DNA of 48,929 bases from an uncultured Pseudomonadota bacterium. Its GTDB lineage: Bacteria > Myxococcota_A > UBA796 > SXON01. The stretch covers positions 1 through 48,929 of the forward strand of contig CAIXRH010000063.1 in the NCBI GenBank assembly GCA_903921785.1. Reading direction: 5' to 3'. The notes below the pieces were generated by a model that searched no databases, had not been told where the DNA came from, and was given only the letters and a program-made list of their open reading frames with translations. Positions 5,144 to 25,110 of the stretch are shown here, piece by piece (position 1 is the first letter of the stretch; the number at the start of each line of letters is the position of its first letter). Made by a program: the position numbers and the translations under genes.

Positions 5144-6220
5144 TCAGCTCCGGGTGCCGTGTACCACGCGGGCGCTCTCGGGATGGGAGACGCTGCCGCC
5201 GCCCGGGGCGCGTTGGCCGTGGTCGTCGGGCTGTTCGTCGCTACGGAGCCCACGGCGGGCCAGGACCCGCTCGACCAGCTCGGGCTCCGGCTCACGGCGG
5301 AGCACCCGCCGCATCACGGCGACCGGGTCTCCGGCGACGGGTGCCAGCTCAGCCGGGTCATAGTGATAGTTCATGCTGTAGAGGCCGGCACACACCGGGT
5401 CGAGCGCGCAGGCGTCACATGCGGCGGCCTTGCCGTGAAGGAACTGCTTCTGGAGCACGAAGCCCTTGCGGTCCAGGAAGCGGATGCAGCGCTCCTCCTC
5501 CTTCACGATCTTCCGGGTCTCGGTTGAGCATTCGGCGAACTCGGACATGTAGCAGAGCGGGACGCGCTCCGCGCGGAACGTGCGTCCGGTGCTCGACAAG
5601 AACCGCATCGCCCGCCGCAGACTCAGCTCGAATTCGCCCAACCGCGGGATCACGTCGGGGTTGCGCTCGGCCCGGTTGAGGTTCGGGTCCATGTTGTTCC
5701 AGACGAAGTGACGCACATGCGGATGTTTCCGTACGATCCACTTCACCGTCTCGTCGAGGTGGTCGCTGTTGAAGGCGTTGATCACCGTGTTGATGTCCGC
5801 GGTGATGCCCAGCTCCGCGACGTGCCCGAGCGCGGCGTCGATGTGACCGTGGCTGCCGGGGGTCTGCGTGAGAAAATCGTGCACCACGGCGCGACTGGAG
5901 TGCAGGCTGAGATGTACGTGGGTGAGCCCCGCTTCGACCAGTTCGGCAAGGAACGTTCGCTCGGCGATCCGGTGGCCATTGGTGATCATCCGGATGAACA
6001 GCCCGCGCGCCTTCGCGTAGCGGACCGCCGGGAGGAGCAGGGGCGCGATGCTCGGCTCGCCGCCGGTGAGGATCACCCCGTCGTACCCGCGACCCACGAG
6101 GTCATCGACGAGCTCATGCATCTCGGCCTCGCCGAGGTCCACGCCGCTGGGCGGGTTGCTGCAGAACCGACAGGCCTGCTTACACTCGCGGGTGAGCTGG
6201 AGGTAGCCGAGGTTCGCCAT
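5144..6220 (-). CDS. Radical SAM protein with C-terminal Cys cluster, 358 aa (rSAM-B)
   Basis: C13-x3-C17-x2-C20 (CKQACRFC) binds the SAM-coordinating [4Fe-4S] cluster, and TGGEP at residues 52-56 is the GGE motif of the radical SAM barrel. The second half has Cys 223, 231 and 245 and the set C268-x2-C271-x5-C277, a SPASM-like auxiliary-cluster arrangement. The sequence LSLHSSRAVVHDFLTQTPGS is shared in form with four other radical SAM proteins in this window (LHG/S... D-x-LT... G). The ATG overlaps the stop of the upstream radical SAM gene (TGATG), and a ferredoxin follows one base after its stop. A peptide-modifying role is inferred from family type and context; the substrate is unknown. 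Confidence 0.88.
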   Translation of the reverse strand: MANLGYLQLTRECKQACRFCSNPPSGVDLGEAEMHELVDDLVGRGYDGVILTGGEPSIAPLLLPAVRYAKARGLFIRMITNGHRIAERTFLAELVEAGLTHVHLSLHSSRAVVHDFLTQTPGSHGHIDAALGHVAELGITADINTVINAFNSDHLDETVKWIVRKHPHVRHFVWNNMDPNLNRAERNPDVIPRLGEFELSLRRAMRFLSSTGRTFRAERVPLCYMSEFAECSTETRKIVKEEERCIRFLDRKGFVLQKQFLHGKAAACDACALDPVCAGLYSMNYHYDPAELAPVAGDPVAVMRRVLRREPEPELVERVLARRGLRSDEQPDDHGQRAPGGGSVSHPESARVVHGTRS

Positions 6221-7938
6221 CAGCTCCTCCGGCCCGCGTCGGTGTCGATGAACGGGACGGGGCCACCGGACGGGTTGGGGAACCGCGGCGGCGGGGGGAG
6301 GGGAGCCGCGCCGGATGCGAGGCGCTTGGCGGGGTCTCCTTCGGGCCAGGCTGCGAGCTGTGCCGAAGCATCGTCGGCCCAGGCGCCCGTCAGCGGTTGG
6401 AGCTGGGCGAACCCATGCGCGCGGAGCGATTGGAGGTGCTGCCCCTCACACACGTGGTCGACCTTGCAGCCGCGGCACCGGAGCGACTTCGCCCGGTAGT
6501 GTTCGGCGATGTACTCGTCCACGAACGCGTCGATCCGCCATCGGCCGTCCTCGTGGAACAGGGCGCTGTCCAGCCGAGCCGGCGCGGGTTCGAGACGCAT
6601 CCCCGGAGCGAGGCAGGCGGGGAGGTTCTCGACCCGGTGGCGCCCGCCGAGGGCCTCGAAGAACGCGCGCCAGTCGGGGTCGAGGCGCGCGGACTCGCTC
6701 GCCTTGGCGCGGGTGGGGGCGTGGAGCACGTGGCGGGCGGTCAGCACCTCGGGGTGGGCGAGGAGCCAGGTGCTGAGCTCCCGATCCAGGCGCACCTCGA
6801 TCTCCACGTCGGGGAGCGCCGCGGCGGCGACGAGTTCGTCTGGCGAGGAGACGACGACTCGGGAGCCGGCGGGAGGGGGGGAGCCGTCGAGCCCGGCCAC
6901 GGGGAGCCGCTGGGGACGGTCGAGGGGGAGTCGATGTTCCGTACCGATCCAGCGGACGCCGGGGGGCGCCGACGCGGCGAGGGCCGGCTGGTCCCCGACC
7001 GCGAACTCGTCGAAACCATTGGCTGACGCACGGGCGATGTGTCGGTCGAGCGCGGAGCAGAAGGGCTCGATGAAGCAGTGAGGACAGCGGTCCTTGTCGC
7101 GGCAGTCGATGGGCGTCCCCGCATCGAGGTATCGCCGGAACTGGACCCGGCGCCCGCCCACCTCGTCGAGCATCTTGTGCGGGTCCTGGATCAGCTCCTC
7201 CAGGCCCTCGAGGTGCTGCACGGGGAAGCGGTTGGTCCAGATGTGGAAGCCGGGGAGCCGGGCGAGGCGGAAGACGCGCCGCAGCGCCTCGGCGTGCTGG
7301 TCCACGTCGTAGAACAGCTCGGCGCGGTGGTCGAAGGCGACGCCCTGCGGGATGATGTGGAGCAGGTCGAATTCCCGCACGCCCACTCGCGAGCACAGCG
7401 CCACGATCGCCTCGAGGTGCTCCACGTTCTGGCGGTTGATGCACACGTCTACGTTCACGATCACCCGCCCGTCGCGGACCGCGCGCATCATCGCCCGCAT
7501 CAGGCTCTCGAAGCCCCGCTTCGTCCGGGTGAGCCGGTCGTGGAGCTCGGGGGTGTGGCCGTGAAGCGAGAAGGTGATCTCGTCGAGGCCCGCCTCGACC
7601 GCGGCGAGGAAGAAGTCTCGATCGGAGAGGCGTACGCCGTTGGTGACCGTCTGCACCCACCGGTAACCCTGCCCCTTCGCGTACCGGACCACGTCGTGGA
7701 ACCGGGGGTGGATGGTGGCCTCCCCTCCGCTGACGACCAGGCGCGTGGCGCCTTTCTCGTCGCGGCCGCGTCGCACTTCGGTGCAGATGTCTTCGAAGGC
7801 CATGAACCGGCCGTCCTGCGCCTCGGCGTCCAGGCAGAAGACACACTTGCTGTTGCACGCCGCGGTGAGGCGCACCCAGTGTTTCACCTCGTTGGCGACC
7901 TCTTCATGGTCGAGGGTGCGGGCGCGGGCGGAGTCCAT
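6220..7938 (-). CDS. Radical SAM protein with duplicated Cys-rich C-terminal half, 572 aa (rSAM-A)
   Basis: Residues 1-300 form a complete radical SAM/auxiliary-cluster enzyme: C28-x3-C32-x2-C35, SGGEA at 70-74, the paralog motif FSLHGHTPELHDRLT near 123-137, and Cys 279, 285, 288 and 294. Residues 300-572 have no CxxxCxxC but end in a second set (C442; C488-x2-C491-x5-C497) laid out exactly like the C-terminal cluster of the smaller paralogs. The second half therefore looks like a degenerate radical SAM unit fused behind a functional one. It is the first gene of a three-gene operon with rSAM-B and the ferredoxin. The start at 7938 is preceded closely by a TACCTT -10-like element and lacks a clear ribosome-binding site, so the mRNA may have a very short leader. 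Confidence 0.88.
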   Translation of the reverse strand: MDSARARTLDHEEVANEVKHWVRLTAACNSKCVFCLDAEAQDGRFMAFEDICTEVRRGRDEKGATRLVVSGGEATIHPRFHDVVRYAKGQGYRWVQTVTNGVRLSDRDFFLAAVEAGLDEITFSLHGHTPELHDRLTRTKRGFESLMRAMMRAVRDGRVIVNVDVCINRQNVEHLEAIVALCSRVGVREFDLLHIIPQGVAFDHRAELFYDVDQHAEALRRVFRLARLPGFHIWTNRFPVQHLEGLEELIQDPHKMLDEVGGRRVQFRRYLDAGTPIDCRDKDRCPHCFIEPFCSALDRHIARASANGFDEFAVGDQPALAASAPPGVRWIGTEHRLPLDRPQRLPVAGLDGSPPPAGSRVVVSSPDELVAAAALPDVEIEVRLDRELSTWLLAHPEVLTARHVLHAPTRAKASESARLDPDWRAFFEALGGRHRVENLPACLAPGMRLEPAPARLDSALFHEDGRWRIDAFVDEYIAEHYRAKSLRCRGCKVDHVCEGQHLQSLRAHGFAQLQPLTGAWADDASAQLAAWPEGDPAKRLASGAAPLPPPPRFPNPSGGPVPFIDTDAGRRS

Positions 7939-8154
7939 CGGCGCGAAGAAGGTAGCACGCGGCGTCCGCGCTGCGCCGGCCGCCCGGGGTTCCGGTGCGG
8001 CGGGTCACGAGCGGACCTTCGTTTCGATGGGGCTGCGCGTCCTCTCCGCAGTGGGTCCCGGTGCGGCTCTGCGCGGGATGGGCGCGTCGGCTCGGCTCAC
8101 GACGCGGCCGGCAGCTGCCGCCGGGCTACGCTATCGTCGCCCCGGAGCAACCCC
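7939..8154. promoter_or_regulatory. Divergent intergenic region (rSAM-A / BNR gene)
   Basis: This 216-bp gap separates divergently transcribed operons and must hold both promoters. On the minus strand, TACCTT (7949-7954) lies 10 bp before the rSAM-A ATG. On the plus strand, TACGCT lies about 22 bp before the ATG at 8155, with GGAG as ribosome-binding site. Neither has a convincing -35. Long frames across it belong to no recognisable protein. Confidence 0.4.
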
Positions 8155-9282
8155 ATGCCGCTGAGCCTCTATGTGGGCACCCGTAAGGGAGTGTGGACCG
8201 CCACGTCCGTGGATCGTCGCGCCTGGCGCGTCGGCGACCCGGGCTTCCTCGGGACGCAGTGCCACCACGTGGTTTTGGACCCCCGCGACCGGCGGACGCT
8301 CCTGTGCGCGTCGCGTCAGTGGCACCTGGGGCCCACCGTCTTTCGGAGTACGGATGGAGGCGCGACCTGGAAGGAGGCGGAGAGCCCGCCGCGGTTTCCC
8401 AAGGGGGACGCGCGCGGGCGGGCGGTCGATCACGTCTTCTGGCTCACGCCGAGCTCGGCGGCCGAGCCTGGCGTCTGGTACGCCGGCACCTCCCCCAAGG
8501 GCCTTTTCCGCTCGGAGGACGGCGGCCGGACCTGGGCGCCGATCACCGGGTTCAACGACCACCCCCAGCAGGCCCAGTGGGTCGGCAGCGACAAGGACGA
8601 GACGCCGGACGGCGGGAAGCTCCACTCCATCCTCGTGGACCCCCGCGATCCTCGGCATCTGTACCTCTCGATGTCGGGTGGCGGGACCTTCGAGTCCACC
8701 GACGCCGGAGCCGACTGGCGCCCGCTGAACTCCGGCGTGGCGATGGACTTCGCGCCTCCGAAGGAGGACGGCACCGAGTACCCGTTCGGCCACGACCCGC
8801 ACTGTGTCGTGCTTCACCCGCAGCGCCCCGACCGGCTGTGGCAGCAGAACCACTGCGGGGTCTACCGGATGGACCGCCCCGAGGGACGGTGGGTTCGGGT
8901 GGGGCGTAACCTCCCCCCCGAGGTCGGGGACATCGGGTTCCCGGTGGTCGTGCATCCCCGCGATCCGGACACCGCATGGGTGTTCCCGATGGACGGCGGC
9001 GGCAACTGGCCCCGCACGCCGCCGAGCGCGCGCCCCGCGTTGTTCCGGACCCGGGACGCGGGCGCCACTTGGGAGCGACAGGACCGGGGCTTCCCGACCA
9101 CACCGGCCTGGTGGACGGTGAAGCGGCAGGCGATGGTCGCGGACGATCACGATCCGGTCGGCCTCTACTTCGGGACGACGCAGGGGGAGGTCTGGGGGAG
9201 CGTCGACGAGGGCGCGAGCTTCTCGCTGCTGTTCCGCGACCTGCCACAGATCCACGCGATCTCCGTCGCCGAGCACGACTGA
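8155..9282 (+). CDS. BNR/Asp-box repeat beta-propeller protein, 375 aa
   Basis: Four Asp-box (BNR) repeats are visible: FRSTDGGATW near residue 63, FRSEDGGRTW near 119, FESTDAGADW near 180, and FRTRDAGATW near 300. These mark a sialidase/VPS10-type beta-propeller, although nothing shows a sialidase active site. The start at 8155 has GGAG eight bases upstream; the frame extends far upstream as a shadow. There is no signal peptide, so it is likely cytoplasmic. Its stop is one base from the GTG of a MoaD/ThiS-like gene. To my recollection such BNR-MoaD pairs recur in other bacteria. The role is unknown. Confidence 0.85.
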   Translation: MPLSLYVGTRKGVWTATSVDRRAWRVGDPGFLGTQCHHVVLDPRDRRTLLCASRQWHLGPTVFRSTDGGATWKEAESPPRFPKGDARGRAVDHVFWLTPSSAAEPGVWYAGTSPKGLFRSEDGGRTWAPITGFNDHPQQAQWVGSDKDETPDGGKLHSILVDPRDPRHLYLSMSGGGTFESTDAGADWRPLNSGVAMDFAPPKEDGTEYPFGHDPHCVVLHPQRPDRLWQQNHCGVYRMDRPEGRWVRVGRNLPPEVGDIGFPVVVHPRDPDTAWVFPMDGGGNWPRTPPSARPALFRTRDAGATWERQDRGFPTTPAWWTVKRQAMVADDHDPVGLYFGTTQGEVWGSVDEGASFSLLFRDLPQIHAISVAEHD

Positions 9283-9283
9283 G

Positions 9284-9544
9284 GTGCGGGTCACGGTGCC
9301 CACGCAGCTCCGCGACTACACCGCCGGGCGCGGCACAGTGGAGGCGGAGGGGACCACGCTCGCTGCGGTGCTCGACGACCTCGAACGGCAGTTCCCCGGG
9401 TTCCGCTTCCGGGTGATCGACGAGCAGGACCGGGTGCGCCGCCACATCATCCTGTTCGTCGGCGGCGAACGCCAGGACGACCTCGAAGCGGGCATTCCGC
9501 CCGGGGCCGAGCTGTTCATCGTCGGGGCGCTCAGCGGGGGCTAA
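9284..9544 (+). CDS. MoaD/ThiS-like sulfur-carrier (ubiquitin-fold) protein, 86 aa
   Basis: The length, the beta-grasp pattern (RVTVPTQLRDYT... TLAAVLDDLERQFPGF... HIILFVGGE... ELFIVGALSGG) and the C-terminal Gly-Gly identify a MoaD/ThiS-family protein. In this family the terminal glycine is adenylated and converted to a thiocarboxylate that donates sulfur. The GTG start lies one base after the stop of the BNR gene, and the next gene begins eight bases after its stop. No E1-like activating enzyme or molybdopterin/thiamine gene is present here, so it probably serves a pathway other than standard Moco or thiamine synthesis. This is inferred from context only. Confidence 0.88.
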   Translation: MRVTVPTQLRDYTAGRGTVEAEGTTLAAVLDDLERQFPGFRFRVIDEQDRVRRHIILFVGGERQDDLEAGIPPGAELFIVGALSGG

Positions 9545-9552
9545 GGAGGCGG

Positions 9553-10692
9553 ATGCTCCCTCCCGCCCCGTACACCTGGCCGGATCCGCCCAACGACAAC
9601 CTCGGCCCGTTCCGGGTGCGGCAGCTCCGGGCCTTGGCGCGGAAGCTCCTCGACTGGCCGGAGCCACTGCCGCCGTGGGCGGCCACCGCCTACCGGGGGC
9701 TCCGGGAGCCGCTCGGCGAGCTGCTGCGCCACGAGACCGGGCGGTTCCTCTCCGCCCTCGCGCTGCCGACGGTGGGCGCGCCGCTCGCGGTGGGCGATCT
9801 GCTCGGGGCCATGCCGCACCTGCTCCTGGAGCTCGCACGTCTGCGGCTCATCGGCGAACAAGGTTTGTTCTGGGGCGCGCCGGTCTCTCGGCTGGTCTCC
9901 CCGGCCTTGGGGGCGGACCGACGGTTCTCCCCGCCGCTGGTGGGAGTCCTCTTCCAGTCCGGCGTGGTGGCGCTCCGCCCGACGGAGGAGTGGGTCCTCG
10001 CGGCCGAGCCTTCCCCGCGCGCCTGGGCGATGGAGGAAGGAGGGTGGCTCCTCGGTGCCGACACCAACCCGCTCGCGATGGTGGAAGCGCACCCCGACAA
10101 GGCGGGCAACGCGCTCGATCTAGGCAACTCCAACGCCGAGACCTGGCTCGCGAGTATCGATGCGGCACGCAAGCGGGTGCGGAGGTACGCGCCCGATCTC
10201 GCGGCCGAACACGCCTCGATCCTCGTGGGCATCGTCCCCACGGGCACGCCGGGGGAGGTGAGCTACTCCGCTTCCTACAAGGAGGCGATCGGGCTGGTCT
10301 ACCTCTCCCTCAACGCCTCCTCGCTCACCATGACCGAGGCGATCGTCCACGAGGTGCAGCACAGCAAGCTCAACCTCTTGTCGTGGAGCGATCCGCTGCT
10401 GACCAACTCGGGAGAGCTCTACAAAAGCCCGGTGCGGCCGGATCCACGCCCGTTGTGGGGTGTGCTCCTGGCCGTTCATGCGTTCCTCCCCGTCGCACGC
10501 ATCCACCAGGCCCTGATCGCCGCCGGTGACCCCGCAGCGGATACACGCCGATACATGGATGTGTTGAGCGTGAATCACGAGGGGATGGAGGTGCTGCGCG
10601 CGCACGCTGCGCCCACCGACCTCGGGCGGCGGCTCCTCGACGGGATGGATGCACTGGAAGCAGCGCTCTGGGCGGAACGCGCCTCGGCGTGA
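9553..10692 (+). CDS. HExxH-motif protein, alpha-ketoglutarate-HExxH-type peptide beta-hydroxylase family, 379 aa
   Basis: HEVQH at residues 266-270 within EAIVHEVQHSKLNLLSW, followed by DPLLTNSGELYKSP, RPDPRPLWGVLLAVHAF and a predicted third metal ligand near His309, matches the 'mod_HExxH' domain (TIGR04267). Members of that family are now named alpha-ketoglutarate-HExxH-type peptide beta-hydroxylases and are linked to RiPP gene clusters. An AAGGAGG ribosome-binding site precedes the ATG, and the gene follows the MoaD-like gene by eight bases. It converges with hisD, leaving about 21 bp between stops. I infer a possible tailoring role for the nearby His-Gly-Ser peptide; no sequence evidence fixes the substrate. 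The first 200 residues are helical and unrecognised. Confidence 0.75.
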   Translation: MLPPAPYTWPDPPNDNLGPFRVRQLRALARKLLDWPEPLPPWAATAYRGLREPLGELLRHETGRFLSALALPTVGAPLAVGDLLGAMPHLLLELARLRLIGEQGLFWGAPVSRLVSPALGADRRFSPPLVGVLFQSGVVALRPTEEWVLAAEPSPRAWAMEEGGWLLGADTNPLAMVEAHPDKAGNALDLGNSNAETWLASIDAARKRVRRYAPDLAAEHASILVGIVPTGTPGEVSYSASYKEAIGLVYLSLNASSLTMTEAIVHEVQHSKLNLLSWSDPLLTNSGELYKSPVRPDPRPLWGVLLAVHAFLPVARIHQALIAAGDPAADTRRYMDVLSVNHEGMEVLRAHAAPTDLGRRLLDGMDALEAALWAERASA

Positions 10693-10713: not shown

Positions 10714-11982
10714 CTACCCTCCGAACAGCCGACGCCGATCTTCGGCGCTCCGGGCGTGTGCTTCCAGGCCCTCCAGCCGGGCCAGCGCGGCGGCGTCCTC
10801 CACGACGGCGGCGAGCGCCGGATCGGCGGCGTCGAGGCGGAGCCAGGTGCGCACGCGGCAGAAGTGCAGGACGTTGAGGCCCCCGGAAAAGCGGGCGGCG
10901 GTCCCGGTGGGGAGCACGTGGTTCGGACCCACGCCGTAGTCGCCGAAGACCTCGGCGGACGCGGCGCCGACGAAGAGCCCGCCGTAGTGGCGGAGGCGGC
11001 CCGCATGCGCCGCAGCCTGTGCCGTGAGCACCTCGAGGTGCTCGGGGGCGAGCCGGTCGCAGACCGCGAGGGCCTCCTCCGCGTCGGCGCAGACCACCGC
11101 GAAGCCATTTGCGACGGCCTCGCGGGCCACCGCGGCCGTGGGCAGCGTGGCGAGCTGGGCGGCGAGCGCGGCGTCGACGCGGGCGGGCAACGCCGGATCC
11201 CAGGTGACGAGGATGGGGCGCGCGTCGGGGTCGTGCTCCGCCTGGCCGAGCAGGTCCGCCGCGATGCGGGCGGGGTCGGCCGTCTCGTCGGCGAGCACCA
11301 CCAGTTCGCTCGGCCCGGCGAGCATGTCGATGCCCACCTGCCCCGCCACGAGCTGCTTCGCGGCGGTGACCCAGCGGTTTCCTGGGCCGACGATCACGTC
11401 TACCCGCGGCACCGGCCCCGCACCGTAGGCCAGCGCGCCCACCGCGTGCGCGCCGCCCACCGCCAGCACCGCGTCCGCGCCGGCCACCCAGGCCGCCGCG
11501 AGCGTGACCACCGCCGGCCGCGGACTCGCCACCCACACCTGCTCCACGCCGGCCGCCCGAGCGGTCACCGCCGTCATCAAGACGCTGCTCGGGAGCGGGT
11601 AGCGTCCCCCTGGCGCGTAGCACCCGGCCCGGTCCACCGGGGCGAGGGTGTGGCCGGCGCGCCCCGCCGGAACGGCCACGTCGAGGTTGGCGAAGGCTGC
11701 GCGTTGGGCGTCGGCGAACGCCCGGACCCGGGTGGCGGTGCGCTCGAGGAGCGCGAGCGCCGCGGGCGGGAGGTCACGGGCGGCGGCGGCGAGGTCGTCG
11801 CGGGTGATGACGAGCGGCGCGCCGATGGGGAGGTCGCCGAGTCGCTCGGCGTGGGCTCGGAGGGCGGGCTCGCCGCGATCGCGCACGTCGTCGAGGATGG
11901 CGCGGGCCGCGGCGAGCGTGGGGGCGTCCACGGGGGAGAGGTGGGCGGCTTCCACCGCCACGGGGGAGACGCGGCGCAGCAT
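10714..11982 (-). CDS. hisD: Histidinol dehydrogenase, 422 aa
   Basis: HisD oxidises L-histidinol to L-histidine with two NAD+ and is zinc dependent. The sequence shows the family's core blocks: CYAPGGRYPLPSSVLMT, VDVIVGPGNRWVTAAKQLVAGQVGIDMLAGPSEL, LLGQAEHDPDA (zinc ligands Gln and His), and APEHLEVLT with GPNHVLPTGTAARFSGGL. The ATG at 11982 lies two bases beyond the stop of the upstream fusion gene. A much longer in-frame extension to 12870 runs through that gene and is a shadow. This is the last gene of the his operon and converges with the HExxH gene. Length and motifs are normal for the family. Confidence 0.95.
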   Translation of the reverse strand: MLRRVSPVAVEAAHLSPVDAPTLAAARAILDDVRDRGEPALRAHAERLGDLPIGAPLVITRDDLAAAARDLPPAALALLERTATRVRAFADAQRAAFANLDVAVPAGRAGHTLAPVDRAGCYAPGGRYPLPSSVLMTAVTARAAGVEQVWVASPRPAVVTLAAAWVAGADAVLAVGGAHAVGALAYGAGPVPRVDVIVGPGNRWVTAAKQLVAGQVGIDMLAGPSELVVLADETADPARIAADLLGQAEHDPDARPILVTWDPALPARVDAALAAQLATLPTAAVAREAVANGFAVVCADAEEALAVCDRLAPEHLEVLTAQAAAHAGRLRHYGGLFVGAASAEVFGDYGVGPNHVLPTGTAARFSGGLNVLHFCRVRTWLRLDAADPALAAVVEDAAALARLEGLEAHARSAEDRRRLFGG

Positions 11983-11984
11983 GG

Positions 11985-13247
11985 TCAGGCTCCGGGCTTG
12001 GCGTTGCCGGGACGGCGGGAGAGGCGGAGGGCGCGGCGGTCGAGCACGGCCTCGACGTCGGTGAGGGGGCGGCCGGCGCGGGCGAGCGCCACCAGCGCGA
12101 AGTACAGGAGGTCGGCGGCTTCTTCCACGGCGTGATCCGGCGTGGCGGCGTCGGCGAGCTCGCCGGCTTCCTCCACGAGCTTCGCGCGGAGGAGCGCGGG
12201 ATCGTCGAGGAGGCGGCGGGTGTAGGAGCCGGCGGGGGCGTCTGCGAGCCGGGCGGCGAGGGTGACCGCGAGCGCGTCGACGCCCGTGGCCGGCCCCCAA
12301 CAGGTCGTGCAGCCGAGGTGACAGAACCCGGGGCCGTGCTGGCGCACGGTGAAGCGGAGGGCGTCGCGGTCGCAGTCGAGGTCGACCCGGAGCAAGTCCT
12401 GGATGGCGCCGCTCTCCTTGCCCTTCTCCCAGAGGCCGCGGCGGCGGGACCAGTACACGCCGGTGCCGGTCTCCAGCGCCCGGGCGAGGCTCTCTGCGTT
12501 GGACCACGCGAGCCCCAACGCCTGTCCGCGTTCGTCCACCACGACGGTGGCCCAGAGCCCGTCCGGCCGGTCGGAGACGAGGGGGGCGGCGAACGCCTCG
12601 GCGAGCCCGATGCGGCCCGTATAGAGCGCCATGCCTACCTGGGCGTCGGCGCCGAGTCGGTCGAGCGTGGCGATCTCCTCGGCGGTCGTCACGCCGCCGG
12701 CGATCGTCACGCGCGCGGCACCAGCCGCGGCCACGAGCGGCGCCACCCGGTCCATCGCGGTGCCGCCGAGCCGGCCTTCGCGCTCCACGAACGTCACGAG
12801 AAACCCGCCCACGAAGGGCCGGAGCTCGCGGATACGGTCCTCGACCCGTGCGCCCGTGCGCGTGGTCCACCCGTGCGTGACCACCTCCCCGTCGCGCGCG
12901 TCGAGTGCGGCGATCAGGCGTTCCTTGGGGAACTTCGCGAGGAGGGCCGGCTCCGCGGCGGTGCCGAGGATGATCTTCGCGGCGCCCTTGTCCAACCAGC
13001 GCCGGGCCGTCTCCTCGTCGCGGATGCCGCCGCCCACGCGGCAGGCATGGCTTGCGCAGAGGTCCTCGATCAACGCCGCGTTGCTCCCGCGGCCCAGGGC
13101 GGCGTCGAGGTCGATCGTGGCGATCTCCCCGACGCGGCCGAACCGGGCGGCGATGGGCCGCGGATCGCCGGCTTCGATGGCGAGCTTCTCGCCGCCGATG
13201 AGCTGGACGGTCTGGCCGCCCTGCAGGTCGATGGAGGGGACGATCAC
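11985..13247 (-). CDS. hisAIE: Trifunctional HisA-HisI-HisE fusion, 420 aa
   Basis: Three histidine enzymes are joined. Residues 1-225 are a HisA (beta/alpha)8 barrel (ProFAR isomerase) with the N-terminal catalytic Asp7 (PSIDLQGG), the phosphate site GGIRDEETARRW, and the second Asp in LDARDGE. Residues 230-320 are HisI (phosphoribosyl-AMP cyclohydrolase) with YWSRRRGLWEKG and the metal-binding block DCDRDALRF... CHLGCTTCW. Residues 333-420 are HisE (phosphoribosyl-ATP pyrophosphatase) with AKLVEEAGELADA and EEAADLLYFALV. HisI-HisE fusions are common; HisA ahead of them is unusual. The ATG overlaps the hisF stop in an ATGA junction. Three pathway steps (E, I, A) are thus on one chain. Confidence 0.93.
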   Translation of the reverse strand: MIVPSIDLQGGQTVQLIGGEKLAIEAGDPRPIAARFGRVGEIATIDLDAALGRGSNAALIEDLCASHACRVGGGIRDEETARRWLDKGAAKIILGTAAEPALLAKFPKERLIAALDARDGEVVTHGWTTRTGARVEDRIRELRPFVGGFLVTFVEREGRLGGTAMDRVAPLVAAAGAARVTIAGGVTTAEEIATLDRLGADAQVGMALYTGRIGLAEAFAAPLVSDRPDGLWATVVVDERGQALGLAWSNAESLARALETGTGVYWSRRRGLWEKGKESGAIQDLLRVDLDCDRDALRFTVRQHGPGFCHLGCTTCWGPATGVDALAVTLAARLADAPAGSYTRRLLDDPALLRAKLVEEAGELADAATPDHAVEEAADLLYFALVALARAGRPLTDVEAVLDRRALRLSRRPGNAKPGA

Positions 13248-14002
13248 GTTCGCACCTTCACGCCGGCGGCGGCCAGCGTGGTCTTGAGGGTGGCCGGGGT
13301 GGTCTCCCCGTCGTGGAAGATGCTGGCGGCGAGCAGCGCGTCCGCGCCGGCGTGGACGGCCTCGACGAGGTGCCCCGCGTGCGCCGCGCCGCCCGAGGCG
13401 ATGACGGGCACGGCGACGGTCGAGCGGATCGCTGCGATCAACGAGAGATCATAGCCGGCCCGCGTGCCGTCGCGGTCCCAACTGGTCAGCAGGATCTCCC
13501 CGGCGCCGCGCGCCGTGGCCTCCCGCGCCCAGTCGACGGCGTCCATTCCGGTGCGATGGCGGCCGGCGCGGGTCACGACTTCCCAGCCCGGGCCGTCGAG
13601 CCGGCGGGCGGCGTCGAGCGCGAGGATCGTACATTGGGCGCCGTAGCGGGTGGCGATGGCGGTCAGCAGCGCGGGTTCGTCCACCGCAGCGGTGTTCACG
13701 CCCACCTTGTCGGCGCCCGCGTCGAGGAGCCGGCCCGCGTCCTCCACCCTGCGCACGCCCCCGCCAACTGTAAGTGGAATACCCAGCACCCGGCGGACGG
13801 CCCGCGTCGTCTCCACGGCGTGCCCGCGGCCCTCGGTCGTGGCCGAGACGTCGAGGATCACGAGCTCGTCGCCGCCGCCGGCCTCGTAGGCGAGGGCGCG
13901 CTCCACGGGGTCGCCCGCGTCGCGGAGGCCCTGGAACTGGACGCCCTTCACCACGCGTCCGTCGCGCACATCGAGGCAGGGCACGATCCGGACGGTCAGC
14001 AT
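13244..14002 (-). CDS. hisF: Imidazole glycerol phosphate synthase, cyclase subunit
   Basis: HisF takes ammonia from HisH and converts PRFAR to imidazole glycerol phosphate and AICAR. The sequence shows the catalytic Asp11 in [17 protein letters not shown], the half-barrel motifs [40 protein letters not shown] with the second catalytic Asp, and [11 protein letters not shown]. It is 252 residues long, as expected. It overlaps hisH by seven bases upstream and the HisA-IE fusion by four downstream. HisF and HisH form a heterodimer, consistent with their coupled order here. Confidence 0.96.
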
Positions 14003-14592
14003 CGCCCCTCCACCCAGCGCTGCATCAGCGCGGCACCCCAGGGGCCGGAGAGCTCAGGGTGAAACTGGCACGCGAGCACGTCCCCGCGTTCGAGGGCGGC
14101 CACGAAGGGCCCGCCGTGGTCGGCGAGGGCGCCGCTCCAGCCGGCGGGGATCCGGTCGACCTTGAAGGTGTTGGCGAAGTAGGCGAAGCCCGGGGTGATC
14201 CAGCGTGAACCGGGCTCGGGCACGACCTCGTTCCAGCCCATCTGCGGCACCCGCACCGCGCCCGTGAACCGGGTGACCGGCCCCTCGATCACCCCGAGGC
14301 CCACGGCCCCGGGTGTCTCCTCGCTGGTGCGCGCAAGGAGCTGGAGGCCGAGGCAGATGGTGAACGTTGGGCGACCGGCCTGTACCCGTTCGCGCAGCGC
14401 GTCGACCAGCCCCAGGCGGACGAGCTCGTCCATCGCCGCGCCGAACGCGCCGACCCCAGGGAGGACGAGGCGATCCGCGTGGCGCACCTCCTCCTCTGCG
14501 GCGGTGAGCACCGCCTCCGCGCCGACCCGCCCGAGCCCGGCGAGCACGGACGCGAGGTTCGCCACCCCGGTGCGGACGACGTGCACCTTCAC
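13996..14592 (-). CDS. hisH: Imidazole glycerol phosphate synthase, glutamine amidotransferase subunit
   Basis: HisH hydrolyses glutamine and channels ammonia to HisF. The class I amidotransferase triad is visible: the nucleophilic Cys in FTICLGLQLL (near residue 80), and His and Glu in CQFHPELSGPWG near the C-terminus. The oxyanion region VLPGVGAFG is also present. At 198 residues it is typical. It overlaps hisB by an ATGA junction upstream and hisF by seven bases downstream. Confidence 0.95.
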   Translation of the reverse strand: MKVHVVRTGVANLASVLAGLGRVGAEAVLTAAEEEVRHADRLVLPGVGAFGAAMDELVRLGLVDALRERVQAGRPTFTICLGLQLLARTSEETPGAVGLGVIEGPVTRFTGAVRVPQMGWNEVVPEPGSRWITPGFAYFANTFKVDRIPAGWSGALADHGGPFVAALERGDVLACQFHPELSGPWGAALMQRWVEGRC

Positions 14593-15179
14593 GTGAGCAC
14601 ACCCTTGGTGCTCGGCACGTCGGCGTGGCCGTCGCGGGCCACGGCTTCGCGCAACGCCAGGGCCAACGCCTTGAACGCGGCCTCGGCGCGGTGGTGGTCG
14701 TTCTCGCCCTTGAGCACGTCCACGTGCAGCGTCATCCGGGCGGCCATCGCCAACGAGCGGAGGGCGTGGCCGAGGTTCTCACACGCCACCCCGCCGAGGC
14801 TCTCCCGGCGAAGCCCAAGGTTCACATCGGCGAACGGGCGACCCGAGAGGTCCACCACCACCCGCGCCAGGGCCTCATCCAGCGGGGCGTGGGCGGCGCC
14901 GAACCGGCGGAGGCCGCGACGGTCGCCGACGGCGGCAAGGAGGGCCTCCCCGAGCGCGAGCGCCACGTCCTCGACGGTGTGGTGATCGTCGACGTGCAGG
15001 TCGCCGGTGCAGGCGATCGTGAGGTCAAACCTCGCATGCTTGGCGAGCGCGCCAAGCATGTGGTCGTAGAACGGAAGGCCCGTGCGCACCTCGGCGCGGC
15101 CGGAGCCGTCGAGGGTGAGGGCCACGGAGACGTCGGTCTCGGCGGTCTTTCGGGCGATCGTGGCGGTGCGGGGGGTCAT
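14589..15179 (-). CDS. hisB: Imidazoleglycerol-phosphate dehydratase, monofunctional, 196 aa
   Basis: HisB dehydrates imidazole glycerol phosphate to imidazole acetol phosphate using manganese. The two duplicated metal-binding motifs are present: DDHHTVEDVALALGEA and ENDHHRAEAAFKALA, along with GLPFYDHML. The ATG at 15179 gives the usual length; a frame extending to 16259 is a shadow in the hisC gene. The phosphatase domain found in enterobacterial bifunctional HisB is absent. In this operon a HAD domain is attached to HisC instead. The start overlaps the hisC stop in an ATGA junction. Confidence 0.95.
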   Translation of the reverse strand: MTPRTATIARKTAETDVSVALTLDGSGRAEVRTGLPFYDHMLGALAKHARFDLTIACTGDLHVDDHHTVEDVALALGEALLAAVGDRRGLRRFGAAHAPLDEALARVVVDLSGRPFADVNLGLRRESLGGVACENLGHALRSLAMAARMTLHVDVLKGENDHHRAEAAFKALALALREAVARDGHADVPSTKGVLT

Positions 15180-16894
15180 GGGAGCAGGGCCTCCAGATCG
15201 GCGGCGGTGGCGACGAGGCGGGCGGCGCCCGCAGCGAGGAGGAGCGGGCCGGTGCGCGCGGGGTCTTCCCCGGGGGCGACCATGCCGAGGGGGACGACGC
15301 CGGCGGCCCGGGCGGCCCGGGCGTCGTCGACGGTGTCGCCGATCATCCACGCGGCCCGAACACCGAGGCGGGTGAGCGCGGCGTGGACGGGCGCAGGATC
15401 GGGCTTCGCGGCCGTCTCCCCCATGCACACGGCGGTGGAGAACAAGTCCATCCACCCTTCGCGTTCGAGCAGCTCCATCGCGTCGCGGCGGGGGCGGCCG
15501 GTGACGAGCGCGAGGGGCAGGCGGGCGCGCAGCCGCTCGAGCTCGGCGCGGGTGAAGCGGGGACGCTCGGTGAGCTTCAGACCGGGAGTGCCGCCGTGCC
15601 CCTGGTACAACCGTTCGAACTGCTCGGTGACCTCGGCGAGCGGCACGTCCACCCCGTGCGCGGCGAGGAGCGCGCGGGTGAGCACCCAGTCGTTGTTCGC
15701 GTTTCCCCTGGCCTTCGCGGCGGCGATCTCCTCCCCGGTGACCGTCACCCCGTAGGCGGCGGCCGTCTGTCGGATGGCCTCGCGGTAGCTCCCGGACACG
15801 TCGACGAGGACGCCGTCGACGTCGAAGAGGAGCGCCTCGGGCGCGAGCACCGCCCTCAGCCCGGCGTGAAGCCGGGTCGTCGCCGCGGCTTCGCCCGGGA
15901 CGTTGATCCGCACGGCGTCCCCCAATGCCGGGTGGCCGGGCCAGCCCCGAACACCGATCCCCAGCCCGGCGAGGCCGTCGCGCAGCCAGGCGGACCGGGG
16001 CGACCGCGCGAACACGAAGTTCGCCTGGGACCGTTGCGCGTCCAGTCCGAGGCCGCGCATCGCCTCCGTGAGCGCGTCGCGGTCCGCGCGCACCTGGGCG
16101 ATGAACGCCGCGGACGCCGCCTGGTCCTGGTCGAGCCGGCTCGCGGCGAGGTGCAGGCTCGGCCCGGACACCGAGTACGGGTTCCCCGCCACCCGGAGCG
16201 CCGCGATCGCCTCCGCGGGCCCCATCGCGTAGCCGACCCGCAGGCCCGCGAGCCCCCACGCCTTGCTCAACGTACGAAACGCCACCGCGTTGGGCAGCTC
16301 GGCCACCACCGGCGTGAGGTCCTCATCGGCGAATTCGACGTACGCGAGGTCCACCATCAGGAGCACGTCCGGGAGCGCCGCGGAGAGGCGTCGGAGCATG
16401 GCCGCCGTGGCCACCTGGCCCGTGGGGTTGTTGGGGCTCACCACGGCCACCACCGCCGTGTCGGGCGTGACGGCAGCGAGCACCGCCTCGATCGGCCAGT
16501 CACCGCCAGGCCAGGGCACTTCGCGGACCTCGGCGCCGGCCCACCGAGCGTATCGGGGGATCATCTCGAAGGTGGGCACCGGGAGGACGATGGATCGTCC
16601 GGGGGTGAGGTAGGCCCGGCAGGCCCGGTCCAGGGCGTCGTCCCCGCCGGCGGTCACGATCACGCGATCGACTGAAACACCGAGTTCCGCCGCAAGCCGG
16701 GCGGTGAGGGCGCGCGCGTCCGGGTACGCCCGCACGAGCGTGTCGGGGTCTGCGTCCGCAAGGCGGGAGAAGATGTCGGGCGGGGAGGGGAGGCCGCCGA
16801 TGCCGTCGAGCAGCAGGTCGAGCGGCGCGGGGTGGCGGGGCACGCTGTACGGCACGAGGCCGGAGATCGCGGGCGAAGGGCGCGGCAGCGGCAT
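15176..16894 (-). CDS. hisC: Histidinol-phosphate aminotransferase fused to HAD phosphatase, 572 aa
   Basis: Residues 1-350 are HisC, a fold-type I PLP enzyme, with SPNNPTG at 153-159, VDLAYVEF and the PLP lysine K211 in RTLSKAWGLAGLRVGY. Residues 353-572 are a HAD subfamily IA phosphatase: DVDGVLVD (nucleophile D358, acid/base D360), ALVTGRPRRD, AAKPDPAPVH and IGDTVDDARAA. Placed in a his operon without any other phosphatase, the HAD domain is the obvious candidate for histidinol-phosphate phosphatase, which would give two consecutive steps on one chain. That assignment is inference. The ATG at 16894 shares a base with the hisG stop (TGATG). Confidence 0.92.
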   Translation of the reverse strand: MPLPRPSPAISGLVPYSVPRHPAPLDLLLDGIGGLPSPPDIFSRLADADPDTLVRAYPDARALTARLAAELGVSVDRVIVTAGGDDALDRACRAYLTPGRSIVLPVPTFEMIPRYARWAGAEVREVPWPGGDWPIEAVLAAVTPDTAVVAVVSPNNPTGQVATAAMLRRLSAALPDVLLMVDLAYVEFADEDLTPVVAELPNAVAFRTLSKAWGLAGLRVGYAMGPAEAIAALRVAGNPYSVSGPSLHLAASRLDQDQAASAAFIAQVRADRDALTEAMRGLGLDAQRSQANFVFARSPRSAWLRDGLAGLGIGVRGWPGHPALGDAVRINVPGEAAATTRLHAGLRAVLAPEALLFDVDGVLVDVSGSYREAIRQTAAAYGVTVTGEEIAAAKARGNANNDWVLTRALLAAHGVDVPLAEVTEQFERLYQGHGGTPGLKLTERPRFTRAELERLRARLPLALVTGRPRRDAMELLEREGWMDLFSTAVCMGETAAKPDPAPVHAALTRLGVRAAWMIGDTVDDARAARAAGVVPLGMVAPGEDPARTGPLLLAAGAARLVATAADLEALLP

Positions 16895-17760
16895 CAGGCG
16901 ATGATCTGGGTGGGCTCGGTGACGAGGATGTCGGAGCCGCCCAGTCGCAGGATCACCGGGATCAGCTCGGGCAAAAGCTTTCGAGTAACAGCTACTTTGA
17001 CCGCATAGCCCTGCCCACCGTGCAGCGTGGACACGGTGGGATGTTTCATGCAGGGCAGGACCTGGATCACCCGGTCGAGGTCGGCGAGGCCCACGTTGAG
17101 CTCAAGCACCACGCGGGAGCGTGCGTCGATCACCGAGCGGAGGAGCATCGCGAGGTGCTCGATCCGCTCGCGCCGGGCGGGGTCTGCCCAGGCGGTGGGG
17201 TTCGCCCAGAGGCGAGTGCTCGACTCCATCACGGTCTCGAAGATCTCGAGCCCGTTCGCGGCGAGGGTGGAGCCGGTCGCGGTGTTGTCCACGATACAGT
17301 CGGCGTCCTCCGGGGGGAAAACCTCCGTCGCACCGTAGCTGCGGACAAACTCGGCATCCAAGCCACACCGAGCGATCCATGCCTGGGTCAGCCGCTCGTA
17401 CTCACTGGCGATGACCCACCGCCGACCCAGCGGGAGGCGCCCTTCGACGAGCAGTTCGCGGGGGGCGGCCGCGACGAGCCGTACCGGGTCGAGCCCGAGG
17501 TCGAGCACGTCCACCAGCTCGGCGCCCTTCTCGGCCACCCAGTCGGCGCCCGCGAACCCCACGTCGCGCGTCCCATGGTGGAGCATCTCCACGATGGTCT
17601 GTGGCTTGAGGATCTTGGTCTCGAAGCCCGCGAGGCTGAGGACGGGGCGGTACGCCCGCGCCCCCACCTTGAGGGACACCCCGGCATCGTGCATGAGCCG
17701 CACGACCTCCTCGTACATTCGACCTTTCGGAATTGCGAGATGAATGCGGGAGACGGTCAC
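16894..17760 (-). CDS. hisG: ATP phosphoribosyltransferase, long form, 288 aa
   Basis: HisG condenses ATP with PRPP, the committed and feedback-regulated step. Family motifs include LAIPKGRMYEE at the N-terminus, DVGFAGADWVAE, the PRPP loop region CIVDNTATGSTLAANGLEI, and a C-terminal ACT-like regulatory domain (MKHPTVSTLHGG... ILVTEPTQIIA). This marks the long HisG form, which does not need HisZ. The start lies only 27 bp beyond the stop of a radical SAM gene on the same strand, and I see no terminator or strong promoter in that gap. The his operon therefore appears continuous with the Hxs-type cluster upstream. Confidence 0.95.
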   Translation of the reverse strand: MTVSRIHLAIPKGRMYEEVVRLMHDAGVSLKVGARAYRPVLSLAGFETKILKPQTIVEMLHHGTRDVGFAGADWVAEKGAELVDVLDLGLDPVRLVAAAPRELLVEGRLPLGRRWVIASEYERLTQAWIARCGLDAEFVRSYGATEVFPPEDADCIVDNTATGSTLAANGLEIFETVMESSTRLWANPTAWADPARRERIEHLAMLLRSVIDARSRVVLELNVGLADLDRVIQVLPCMKHPTVSTLHGGQGYAVKVAVTRKLLPELIPVILRLGGSDILVTEPTQIIA

Positions 17761-17787: not shown

Positions 17788-18894
17788 TTATCTCGGTTGG
17801 GCGCTCGCGTGGGGGGTGGGGTCGCCGGCCACCTCCAGCCCCAGCCGCTCGCACTCTCGCACCAACGCCCCCCGATCCGGATGGTCTCCCGGCCCGTCGA
17901 GCACCACCCGGGTCGCGCCGCGGGCCTGGCCCTGCACGAGACGCTGACGCAGCGTCCTAGAGCTGAAGGCGTCGCCGAGCTCCAGCCGCAGCGGGTCGGC
18001 GAAGGGCCGCGGGCCACCGGGGGGAGCGAGCTCATCGTCCCCCCATCGATCGAGGTAGGCCGGCTCCACGCCCCCGCAGGCGGAGCGCAGTGAACAACTG
18101 ACACATGTATCGGTGTGTCGCGGGGAACGGGGCGCCTCTTCTGCGCCGGCGAAGGCCCGCTCGGGGGAGGGCGCGTCCAGTCGGTCGGCGGCGACGGGGC
18201 GCAGCTCGGCGTTCATGCAGAGCGGGAGCCCCACCGTCTCCAGCTCGATGCCAAGGAGGCGGGCACGCTCCAGGGCCGCGGTGAGCGCCTCAGCGGCGAG
18301 GCTCAGCCGCGGGGCGAGCATCCGGGCTTCGGGCTTCGCCGCGCCCTCTTCGCGACACATCACGAAACGTATCGCCGTGGCACCGAGGCGGGCAGCGAGC
18401 TCCACCAGCGCCGCCGCTTGGGGCGTCGTCGTACGGGTAACCACGGCGTGAATCCGTACGGTGAGCCCTGCAACGCGCGCTTGCCGGACGGCCGTGGTCG
18501 CGCGGCGGAAGGCGCCGGGCGTGCCGGTGAGCCAGTCGTGTACGGCGGCCTCGGGCGAGTGGAGCGCCACGGCGAGATCGGTCAGCCCGAGCTTTCGGAG
18601 GTGCGCGGCGGCGCCGGCTGCGGCGAGGACGGATCCGTTGGTCTGTAGCGCGATCCGCCGGAAACCAGCGGCCTTCGCCAGCTCGACGAGCGCCGGCAGG
18701 TCCGGCCGGGTCGTGACCTCCCCGCCCGCGAGGATGACCCCCTCCCGGTGCGGGATGGCCGCGAGCGCGGCGCCTACCGCTGGGCCATCGGGCTCCGGGC
18801 TCCCCGTGTTTGCCGCGGCGACCTGCGGCGCGAGATCACAGAACCTACACGCCTGGTTGCACCGGTAGCCGACGCGGAGGTCCGTCCAGCGCAT
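17788..18894 (-). CDS. Radical SAM protein with C-terminal Cys cluster, 368 aa (rSAM-C)
   Basis: The ATG at 18894 was chosen because it lies two bases past the upstream stop and places C12-x3-C16-x2-C19 (CNQACRFC) at a typical N-terminal distance. AGGEV at 56-60 is the GGE motif, and VALHSPEAAVHDWLTGTPGAF is the motif shared with the other paralogs here. C226 and the set C264-x2-C267-x5-C273 form the candidate auxiliary-cluster site. About 95 further residues follow that cluster and look like a separate small domain. It is the last of the radical SAM genes before hisG. A peptide-modifying role is inferred from position. Confidence 0.87.
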   Translation of the reverse strand: MRWTDLRVGYRCNQACRFCDLAPQVAAANTGSPEPDGPAVGAALAAIPHREGVILAGGEVTTRPDLPALVELAKAAGFRRIALQTNGSVLAAAGAAAHLRKLGLTDLAVALHSPEAAVHDWLTGTPGAFRRATTAVRQARVAGLTVRIHAVVTRTTTPQAAALVELAARLGATAIRFVMCREEGAAKPEARMLAPRLSLAAEALTAALERARLLGIELETVGLPLCMNAELRPVAADRLDAPSPERAFAGAEEAPRSPRHTDTCVSCSLRSACGGVEPAYLDRWGDDELAPPGGPRPFADPLRLELGDAFSSRTLRQRLVQGQARGATRVVLDGPGDHPDRGALVRECERLGLEVAGDPTPHASAQPR

Positions 18895-18896
18895 GG

Positions 18897-19952
18897 TCAG
18901 CGGATCGCGTGGAGCTCGGCGTCGCCGTGCACCGGGAGGTAGTTCTTCCACACCCCTTCGCAGACCCCGGCGTAACGGCAGCCTTGGCACCGATGCTCGG
19001 GCTGGGCCTTCAGATCGTGCTTCTTCCGGTCCTGCCAGTTGAAACGAGCGCGGCCGTCCTCGATGGTGGCGATGCCGTCGGGGAAGCCGTCGGAGGTGAG
19101 CGTCTTGATGGAGCAGTCGGTGTCGAGGTCGCGGAACTCGCCGATGTACTTGCGGGCCAGCGCCTTGTTGCCCAGGAGCTCAGGCGGCAAGACACAGAGC
19201 GGGAAACTACCGAGGGTGAACGTCCGCTTGAAGTGGTACTCATTGAGGAGCACTGCCTTGAGCACGTAGGGCACCACGTCGGTGAGCTTGGGGATGAGCC
19301 GGTGCTCCGTCTCCGCGTAGCCCTCGGCGCGCACGAAGTTGGCGCGGACGTCGTCGACGCCGAGCTCGAAGAAGTACCGGAGCAGGTTGGGGAGGTACCG
19401 GTAGTTCGGAGCGCTGACCACGATGTTCACCGAGACGTTGTCGGCGAGCCGCCCCTCGGCGCGCTTCTGGAGCAGGTACTTCAGCCCGGAGGTCTTCTTC
19501 TCGAAGTTCCCCGGGACGCCGGTAAGGCCATCTTCCAGGGCGGGGTTGTGCCCGTGCATCGACATCGTGACCCGGGTGAGCCCGGCGTCGAGCAGCTTGT
19601 CGACGAAGTCGTGGCGGAAGAACTTGGTGCCGTTGGTGGCGAGGGTGATCCGGGTGTAGCCGAGGTCCCGGGCGAAGCGGATCGCGTCGAGGATCCACGG
19701 GTAGGTCGTCGGTTCGCCGCCGAGGAAGCCTACGGAGCGGGTGCCGCGGTCGTACCAGCGCTGGATCTCCGCCTGCATCTCCGGGTACGGCATGTACCGG
19801 CGCATCTCGGTGGCGGGCAGCCCGTCCAGGCAGAACACACACTTGTTGTTGCAGATCTTCCCGACGTTGATCTCGACGTTACGCCGGGTGTCGCGCCAGA
19901 GATCCGCTCCCGCGATCCCCGGTACGGACACGGCTGGCTGGGCAGCGCTCAT
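18897..19952 (-). CDS. Radical SAM protein with C-terminal Cys cluster, 351 aa (rSAM-D)
   Basis: The ATG at 19952 overlaps the previous stop (ATGA). C34-x3-C38-x2-C41 (CNNKCVFC) is the SAM-binding cluster site, LGGEP at 77-81 is the GGE motif, and MSMHGHNPALEDGLTGVPGNF is the shared paralog motif. C253, C280 and C322-x2-C325-x5-C331 are candidate auxiliary-cluster ligands. The C-terminus (HGDAELHAI) is nearly the same as that of the neighbouring rSAM-E (YGEAELHAL), supporting recent common ancestry. N-terminal residues 1-28 precede the barrel and may contact a peptide or partner. The substrate is unknown. Confidence 0.88.
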   Translation of the reverse strand: MSAAQPAVSVPGIAGADLWRDTRRNVEINVGKICNNKCVFCLDGLPATEMRRYMPYPEMQAEIQRWYDRGTRSVGFLGGEPTTYPWILDAIRFARDLGYTRITLATNGTKFFRHDFVDKLLDAGLTRVTMSMHGHNPALEDGLTGVPGNFEKKTSGLKYLLQKRAEGRLADNVSVNIVVSAPNYRYLPNLLRYFFELGVDDVRANFVRAEGYAETEHRLIPKLTDVVPYVLKAVLLNEYHFKRTFTLGSFPLCVLPPELLGNKALARKYIGEFRDLDTDCSIKTLTSDGFPDGIATIEDGRARFNWQDRKKHDLKAQPEHRCQGCRYAGVCEGVWKNYLPVHGDAELHAIR

Positions 19953-20902
19953 GTGGACTCCAAGGCGTGCAGCTCGGCCTCCCCGTACAGCTCGACATAC
20001 CGCGCGAAGACCCCGTGACACAAGCGATTCCAACTACAGGATCCGCAAGCCGTGACCTTCGCGCGCTTCCGGTCGGGTTGCCAGGAGTACAGCCCCTCCA
20101 GCGATACCCGGTCGGGGTGGCGGACCCACTCGAAGGTGACGCGTGGGTTCCAGTGGATGTCGTTCGCGTACATCCGGGCCTCGCCGAGCGCGCAGGCGGG
20201 CAGGCCGAAGAACCGGACGATCATCGGGCCGGCCTCGGCGAGCACCGCGGGCACGAGCCGCCGGACCTCATCCAGGCGCAACGTGAGGTGCGGATAGGCA
20301 TCCTCGCCCGCGCCTTCGGGCGTGACGTTGGAGACCACGAGCAGCTCGGCGCCGCGTTCACGTGCCAGCCGGGTCGTCTCCACCAGTCGCGCGGCGTTGT
20401 CACGCACCAGCACCGTGTTGACGAACCGCCGGAAGCCTGGGAACGCGGAAGCGTTCTCCATGGCCCGCGCGAGCCGGTCGAAGCTGCCGGGGCGGCCGGT
20501 GAGCGCGTCGTGCGTGGCGGCGTCGGGGCCGTGGAGGGAGAAGAGCGCCTCGTCGAGGAACGGGAGCGCGCGCGCGGCGAAGGCGGGGTCGGCGAGGCGG
20601 GTGCCGATGGTCCCGATGCTCGTGCGCATCCCCAGCTTCTTGGCGAGCTGGAGGATCTCCACGAACTGCGGATGGATGGTGGGCTCCCCCCCGGTGAAGT
20701 GCACCGACTCCACGCCCCGCTCGGCCTGCTCGCGGAGCACCCGCGCCACCCGCCCGAACGTCACCGGGAACGGGTTGTAGGCGGCCATCCGGTGCTCTTC
20801 GGAACAAAACGCGCACCGCTCGGGGCAGTGGTAGGTGATGTGGAATTCCAGGCGCCGCATCGGCTGGCCGGTCTCTGGGTGGAGCCAGGGCGTGGCGCTC
20901 AC
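19949..20902 (-). CDS. Radical SAM protein with C-terminal Cys cluster, 317 aa (rSAM-E)
   Basis: The GTG at 20902 overlaps the stop of the HxsC-like gene (GTGA), which supports it over an upstream ATG at 20956 lying inside that gene. C26-x3-C30-x2-C33 (CPERCAFC), TGGEP at 70-74 and FSLHGPDAATHDALTGRPGSF (the shared paralog motif) mark a functional radical SAM barrel. C237 and C286-x2-C289-x5-C295 are the candidate auxiliary-cluster ligands. It is the first of three consecutive paralogs downstream of the Hxs-like core genes, and is translationally coupled on both sides. No function beyond probable peptide modification can be assigned. Confidence 0.87.
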   Translation of the reverse strand: MSATPWLHPETGQPMRRLEFHITYHCPERCAFCSEEHRMAAYNPFPVTFGRVARVLREQAERGVESVHFTGGEPTIHPQFVEILQLAKKLGMRTSIGTIGTRLADPAFAARALPFLDEALFSLHGPDAATHDALTGRPGSFDRLARAMENASAFPGFRRFVNTVLVRDNAARLVETTRLARERGAELLVVSNVTPEGAGEDAYPHLTLRLDEVRRLVPAVLAEAGPMIVRFFGLPACALGEARMYANDIHWNPRVTFEWVRHPDRVSLEGLYSWQPDRKRAKVTACGSCSWNRLCHGVFARYVELYGEAELHALEST

Positions 20903-24974: not shown

Positions 24975-25110
24975 GGGCAGGCTCCCGAAGGGCCGAGGAT
25001 ATCGCAGTCGTCGGGGCCCGGGGAGAAAAAAGCGCGGCGGCGCGGCGACCGTTACGCGACGGTGGCGACCCCGCGACGATCGGGGCATGCTCTATGGCAG
25101 GGAGCTCCCC
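24975..25110. promoter_or_regulatory. Divergent intergenic region with likely Hxs operon promoter
   Basis: This 136-bp gap separates the Tat gene (minus strand) and the MopE-type lipoprotein gene (plus strand). On the minus strand, TATCCT (25001-24996) within GCGATATCCT lies 21 bp before the ATG and is the best -10 candidate. A T6 run on the same strand lies about 20 bp further upstream. It must serve the entire minus-strand array unless internal promoters exist. Confidence 0.4.

Follow-up and report, generated by a model that had tools for sequence, protein, structure and literature searches.

Reported activities of the alpha-KG-HExxH family include beta-hydroxylation of His, Asp, Phe, Gln and Pro; two members, PflC and PosC, cleave the peptide backbone as well (PMC12636437; PMC13060819). 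As summarised in PMC12636437, the family member ChlH hydroxylates His and Asp after a cyclophane has been installed by its radical SAM partner. The product and the chemistry of the His-Xaa-Ser (Hxs) systems appear uncharacterised in the literature searched. The window (the whole stretch of DNA analysed here, 48,929 nucleotides) carries a His-Xaa-Ser cluster together with a gene of the alpha-KG-HExxH family, referred to below as the HExxH gene (Table 1).

Table 1. Genes of the Hxs cluster, the adjoining trio and the his operon in the window
Feature	Position	Strand	Basis of identification and remarks
rSAM_A, radical SAM	5144-6220	-	Pfam Radical_SAM 8.6e-19; conserved beside rSAM_B
rSAM_B, radical SAM	6220-7938	-	Pfam Radical_SAM 4.3e-19; in relatives, normally directly beside the HExxH gene
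BNR/Asp-box beta-propeller, 375 aa	8155-9282	+	Pfam BNR; 516 bits to 3b7f
ThiS/MoaD/CysO-like beta-grasp protein, 86 aa, GTG start, C-terminal GG	9284-9544	+	Pfam ThiS at cutoff; 4n6e_B, 3dwg_C
Predicted alpha-KG-HExxH-type peptide beta-hydroxylase, 379 aa	9553-10692	+	TIGR04267; 43 homologues; ChlH profile match
his operon, hisD to hisG	10714-17760	-	Named from sequence; outside the peptide system
rSAM_F, radical SAM	17788-18894	-	Best NCBIfam match HxsC4, 91.4 bits, under cutoff
rSAM_E, HxsC4-like radical SAM	18897-19952	-	HxsC4 153.6 bits (cutoff 500)
rSAM_D, radical SAM	19949-20902	-	HxsC4 88.7 bits, under cutoff
rSAM_C, PapB-like radical SAM (start codon uncertain)	20899-21876	-	PapB 94.2 bits, under cutoff
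HxsA4 precursor, proposed substrate	21875-22315	-	NF038313 106.9 bits (cutoff 55)
HxsB radical SAM/SPASM maturase	22312-23832	-	TIGR03978 504.6 bits (cutoff 370)
HxsD-related protein	23832-24065	-	NF038315 56 bits (cutoff 41)
HxsD-like protein	24058-24483	-	TIGR03976 34.1 bits (cutoff 50), over the C-terminal 99 aa

Two components expected of an Hxs system, an HxsB maturase (TIGR03978) and an HXS-repeat precursor (NF038313), are present, and the precursor ends in the tail C(SHG)17QW. The six additional radical SAM proteins (rSAM_A to rSAM_F) all score under the HxsC and HxsC4 cutoffs, the best HxsC score (TIGR03977) being 81.5 for rSAM_A against 267.9; the system is therefore filed as an Hxs variant rather than as a classic HxsA-D system. 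Large proteins packed with Asp-rich DxDGDG repeats are encoded at 24790-27345 and 42349-45255, and these resemble secreted repeat proteins that bind metal. The HExxH gene is the last of three open reading frames on one strand, separated by exactly the 1- and 8-bp gaps that the first-pass annotation of this DNA had reported. As that annotation also stated, the trio is flanked by radical SAM groups on either side (5144-7938 and 17788-23832, on the opposite strand); the his operon additionally intervenes between the trio and the second group.

The assignment of the third gene to the alpha-KG-HExxH family, made in the first-pass annotation along with a proposal to search TIGR04267, is borne out: the mod_HExxH score of the protein is 105.9 bits, where the cutoff is 40. 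A profile of 26 HExxH homologues (A1) picks out two sequences of solved structure: ChlH, 8s5f (E = 1.4e-15), and 22nu (E = 6.6e-18), which is a radical SAM core domain-containing protein. The motif itself reads HEVQH (residues 266-270), and H266, E267, H270, R295, D297, R299 and H309 are kept in all 43 aligned homologues. An AlphaFold2 model of the protein from three sequences is too poor to use (mean pLDDT 39.8). The zincin motif is likewise HExxH, and the related PflC is hydrolytic on a leaderless peptide (PMC12636437), both of which would suit a zinc metalloprotease that cuts the leader off HxsA4. This reading is nevertheless very unlikely, given the TIGR04267 score over cutoff, the absence of any peptidase match in the Pfam search, and an invariant SPxRPDxRP block (residues 292-300) that aligns with SPWREDLRP of ChlH in the profile alignment to 8s5f.

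In relatives of the window genome, the HxsA4-type His-Xaa-Ser cluster includes the HExxH gene as a conserved component. Homologues occur in 31 of 58 relatives, including all 11 genomes of the genus, and the window proteins were mapped onto 40 relative loci, the genomes compared being drafts; a scan of genome contigs with one protein gives two loci only, both on G003 and G004 contigs. Within the genus and family the gene order is HxsD1-HxsD2-HxsB-HxsA4-rSAM_C-D-E-F, followed by HExxH on the opposite strand and then rSAM_B-rSAM_A. HExxH and rSAM_B are divergent and 20-240 bp apart in the 11 family loci that show both, usually with nothing between them, and the distance from rSAM_F to HExxH is 14-254 bp in three genomes (G001, G012 and G015). 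Six other families (f3, f4, f7, f14, f18 and f42) likewise have HExxH and rSAM_B in the vicinity of HxsA4/HxsB, with rSAM_B also adjoining HExxH in f18 and f42 genomes. The pairing extends to families more distantly related: in G180, G196, G204 and G212, HExxH is at most 0.5 kb from rSAM_B and the contig also carries HxsA4, 4-20 kb off; in G060, G152 and G024 the genes lie within 1.6-5.6 kb. The physical HExxH-Hxs link recurs across several families.

Co-occurrence points the same way. Among 188 genomes sampled from the phylum, HxsA4 is over cutoff in 60, HExxH in 50 and both in 41 (odds ratio 28.5, p = 3e-18, Fisher test on counts that ignore shared ancestry). Fifteen HExxH genomes in which the HExxH gene or its contig was without a full cluster (e.g., G013, G047, G100, G104, G133) were checked for HxsB, which is over cutoff in 14, the exception being G107. 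In five genomes (G013, G047, G100, G104 and G178) the HExxH gene adjoins no radical SAM gene, and the physical link is thus not universal. The tie that the first-pass annotation proposed between the HExxH enzyme and the HGS-repeat peptide is upheld by this synteny in many genomes and by the co-occurrence with HxsA4.

Many HxsA4 precursors with a similar tail are found in genomes without HExxH, so that hydroxylation cannot be obligatory for HXS peptides generally. These precursors also bear on whether the enzyme, instead of hydroxylating many repeats, oxidatively cleaves or trims the peptide, with C-terminal amidation. Two enzymes of this family, PflC and PosC, combine hydroxylation with cleavage (PMC12636437), and the invariant tail end, GQW or GSW, is a possible recognition site; however, identical tail ends occur in genomes without HExxH, and we consider trimming unlikely. 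Differences between tails from genomes with and without HExxH were also considered as a pointer to the target residue, and none was singled out. The choice between GQW and GSW tracks the radical SAM set rather than HExxH: GQW-ending tails belong to clusters with rSAM_C and rSAM_D, and GSW-ending tails to clusters without them, a split that may hint at a residue modified by rSAM_C or rSAM_D. Many further HxsA4-like precursors (L188-L196, L198-L202 and L205-L215) end in C(SHG)nSW and are without homologues of the window-type maturases within about 10 kb; some of them have leaders like FLLMAGTSGHALA.

The other two genes of the trio have a different history. The beta-propeller protein matches Pfam BNR (7.5e-08) and Sortilin-Vps10 (2.4e-09), contains three S-x-D-x-G-x-x-W boxes and is closely related to the solved structure 3b7f. 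Its small neighbour scores marginally with Pfam ThiS (22.8, cutoff 22.5) and under cutoff with NCBIfam SAMP1 (35.6, cutoff 60); the beta-grasp match and the C-terminal GG (...ALSGG) make it a candidate ThiS/MoaD sulfur carrier, on that marginal Pfam score. Its PDB matches are 4n6e_B and 3dwg_C, the latter being the sulfur carrier CysO. The BNR and ThiS genes are paired in many relatives, in either order, and their loci have almost no neighbours in common (the exception is L055 and L061, with three genes common). A sulfur carrier of this type would be expected to have an activating E1-like enzyme or a CysM/Mec partner close by; gene calls beside the pair in nine relatives disclosed no generally conserved neighbour. 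An annotated MoaD/ThiS and exo-alpha-sialidase pair is also found on the Pseudomonas aeruginosa plasmid pZYPA1927, surrounded by unrelated genes, and no paper on a MoaD/BNR pair was found in the literature searched. In the BNR tree the window copy falls among copies from different genera and families and apart from L056, the copy of the genus, the inner support being partly weak. Several BNR copies of relatives (L055, L057-L061 and L066) are frame-split, truncated or interrupted by stop codons, and look as if the pair were often lost.

The first-pass annotation read the three genes as a working operon, in which the ThiS-like protein might deliver sulfur to the HGS peptide or tag it, with the propeller as a scaffold. 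The shared strand, the short gaps, the overlap of the ThiS stop codon with the ribosome-binding site of the HExxH gene (TAAGGAGGCGGATG), and the retained C-terminal GG with its CysO match would all fit such a unit. Against it, the trio occurs in no genome examined except that of the window: the pair adjoins HExxH in 0 of 21 other family genomes, and every relative examined has the HExxH gene without BNR-ThiS alongside. BNR shows no association with HxsA4 in the 188 phylum genomes (odds ratio 1.55, p = 0.26) and a weak one with HExxH (odds ratio 2.9, p = 0.005), the two being close on one contig in the window only. BNR is moreover present in six genomes (G020, G021, G046, G039, G171 and G084) in which HxsB and HxsA4 are both absent over cutoff. 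Occurrence in genomes lacking any RiPP locus, which the first-pass annotation had itself named as evidence against its proposal, was checked for the Hxs locus, and it is seen for the BNR-ThiS pair and not for the HExxH gene. A three-gene operon is accordingly barely credible, and sulfur transfer, tagging and scaffolding are unsupported. BNR-ThiS is an independent two-gene module and a passenger at the Hxs locus, the trio is a chance neighbourhood in one genome and no functional unit, and of the three genes one alone bears out the RiPP idea.

The junctions suggest how this neighbourhood arose. Directly upstream of rSAM_B, at 7939-7960 (near 7947), the sequence GAAGGTAGCA is conserved in four relative loci (L072, L074, L075 and L077), with A/C variation at its first bases, and it survives at the left border of the BNR-ThiS insert; in the window, ThiS takes the place of the sequence found ahead of HExxH in relatives. 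From the kept GAAGGTAGCA and the replaced HExxH-upstream sequence, BNR-ThiS was probably inserted into the divergent promoter region between rSAM_B and HExxH, and the HExxH gene may now depend on the BNR promoter by read-through. The reverse complement of GAAGGTAGCA, TGCTACCTTC, resembles a -10 element, and it lies so near the rSAM_B start codon that the rSAM_B transcript may be leaderless. The draft genome is in 362 contigs, of which the window is one, and relatives differ from the window on both flanks of HExxH, both of which would be expected if the position of BNR-ThiS were an assembly artefact. That explanation is highly improbable, since the motif upstream of rSAM_B is retained, the overlapping ribosome-binding site at the ThiS-HExxH junction is a natural one, and the junction genes are intact.

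On its other flank, HExxH adjoins a slot whose content, unrelated genes, changes from lineage to lineage; the slot is empty in G001 and contains the his operon in the window. A histidine operon inside a His-rich peptide cluster is seen in this genome only; it is absent from the Hxs clusters of relatives, and G004, G005 and G011 have hisD, at 83-84% identity, on contigs other than those of the cluster. A functional partnership through histidine supply was ruled out because the content of the slot varies and hisD lies elsewhere in relatives. To judge from sequence, two genes of the window operon are apparently fusions, hisC with a HAD-like domain and hisA with a part resembling hisI/hisE.

Taken together, the locus very probably represents a conserved Hxs RiPP pathway in which the HExxH enzyme, with rSAM_B, hydroxylates the HxsA4 tail, and into which BNR-ThiS came as an unrelated insert. 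HxsB and the other radical SAM enzymes would act on the precursor at its C(SHG)17QW tail, and the HExxH protein, as a putative Fe(II)/alpha-ketoglutarate dioxygenase acting alongside rSAM_B, would beta-hydroxylate tail residues. By analogy with ChlH, which acts after the radical SAM cyclophane and whose fusion to its partner the adjacency of rSAM_B and HExxH resembles, we infer hydroxylation of the HGS tail, with His most likely the target. The BNR-ThiS module would have entered the interval from rSAM_B to HExxH in the lineage of this genome, read-through transcription being its only likely link to the pathway. A tentative extension, to which we give rather less than even credence, is that the HExxH enzyme acts repetitively on C(SHG)n with rSAM_B and the other radical SAM enzymes, yielding a densely beta-hydroxylated, cross-linked poly-His peptide that is perhaps metal-binding; if true, such repetitive hydroxylation and cross-linking would be chemistry undescribed for HXS systems. 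The analysis establishes a putative alpha-KG-HExxH hydroxylase gene as a conserved part of the HxsA4 type, usually beside one particular radical SAM gene, defines a minimal set for reconstitution (HxsA4, HxsB, rSAM_B and HExxH), and removes the tempting false lead of a sulfur carrier with a propeller.

Among known systems, ChlH and the fused radical SAM-alpha-KG-HExxH proteins (Morishita 2024, as reported in PMC12636437; 8s5f) share with the window enzyme an SPxRxDxRP block and the HExxH domain. In the account of ChlH in PMC12636437, the enzyme acts with a radical SAM partner on His and Asp of a RiPP precursor; the partnership with rSAM_B is here one of synteny. In contrast to such fusions as described there, the window has separate genes for a predicted enzyme and its presumed partner, an HxsA4 HGS-repeat precursor and, HxsB included, six radical SAM genes in addition to rSAM_B. 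Stand-alone alpha-KG-HExxH enzymes in RiPP clusters, like that of the window, include PflC and PosC (PMC12636437), PesO (PMC13060819) and BpmH/BipH (PMC12707348), whose clusters contain MNIO or other enzymes, whereas the window cluster contains radical SAM enzymes. PosC works along a run of repeated residues, in its case a Gln run (PMC12636437), and PesO targets Pro (PMC13060819), whereas the window precursor has HXS repeats. Carriers of the CysO/ThiS/MoaD type (3dwg, 4n6e) with an exo-alpha-sialidase-like BNR partner are encoded by adjacent genes on pZYPA1927 as in the window, where the pair differs in preceding an unrelated, putative hydroxylase gene. Of the His-Xaa-Ser system HxsA-D, as presented by Haft and Basu (in PMC9062424), the window retains HxsB, HxsA4 and HxsD-related proteins over cutoff; in place of an HxsC over cutoff it has several HxsC4-like or PapB-like radical SAM proteins, together with the alpha-KG-HExxH enzyme.
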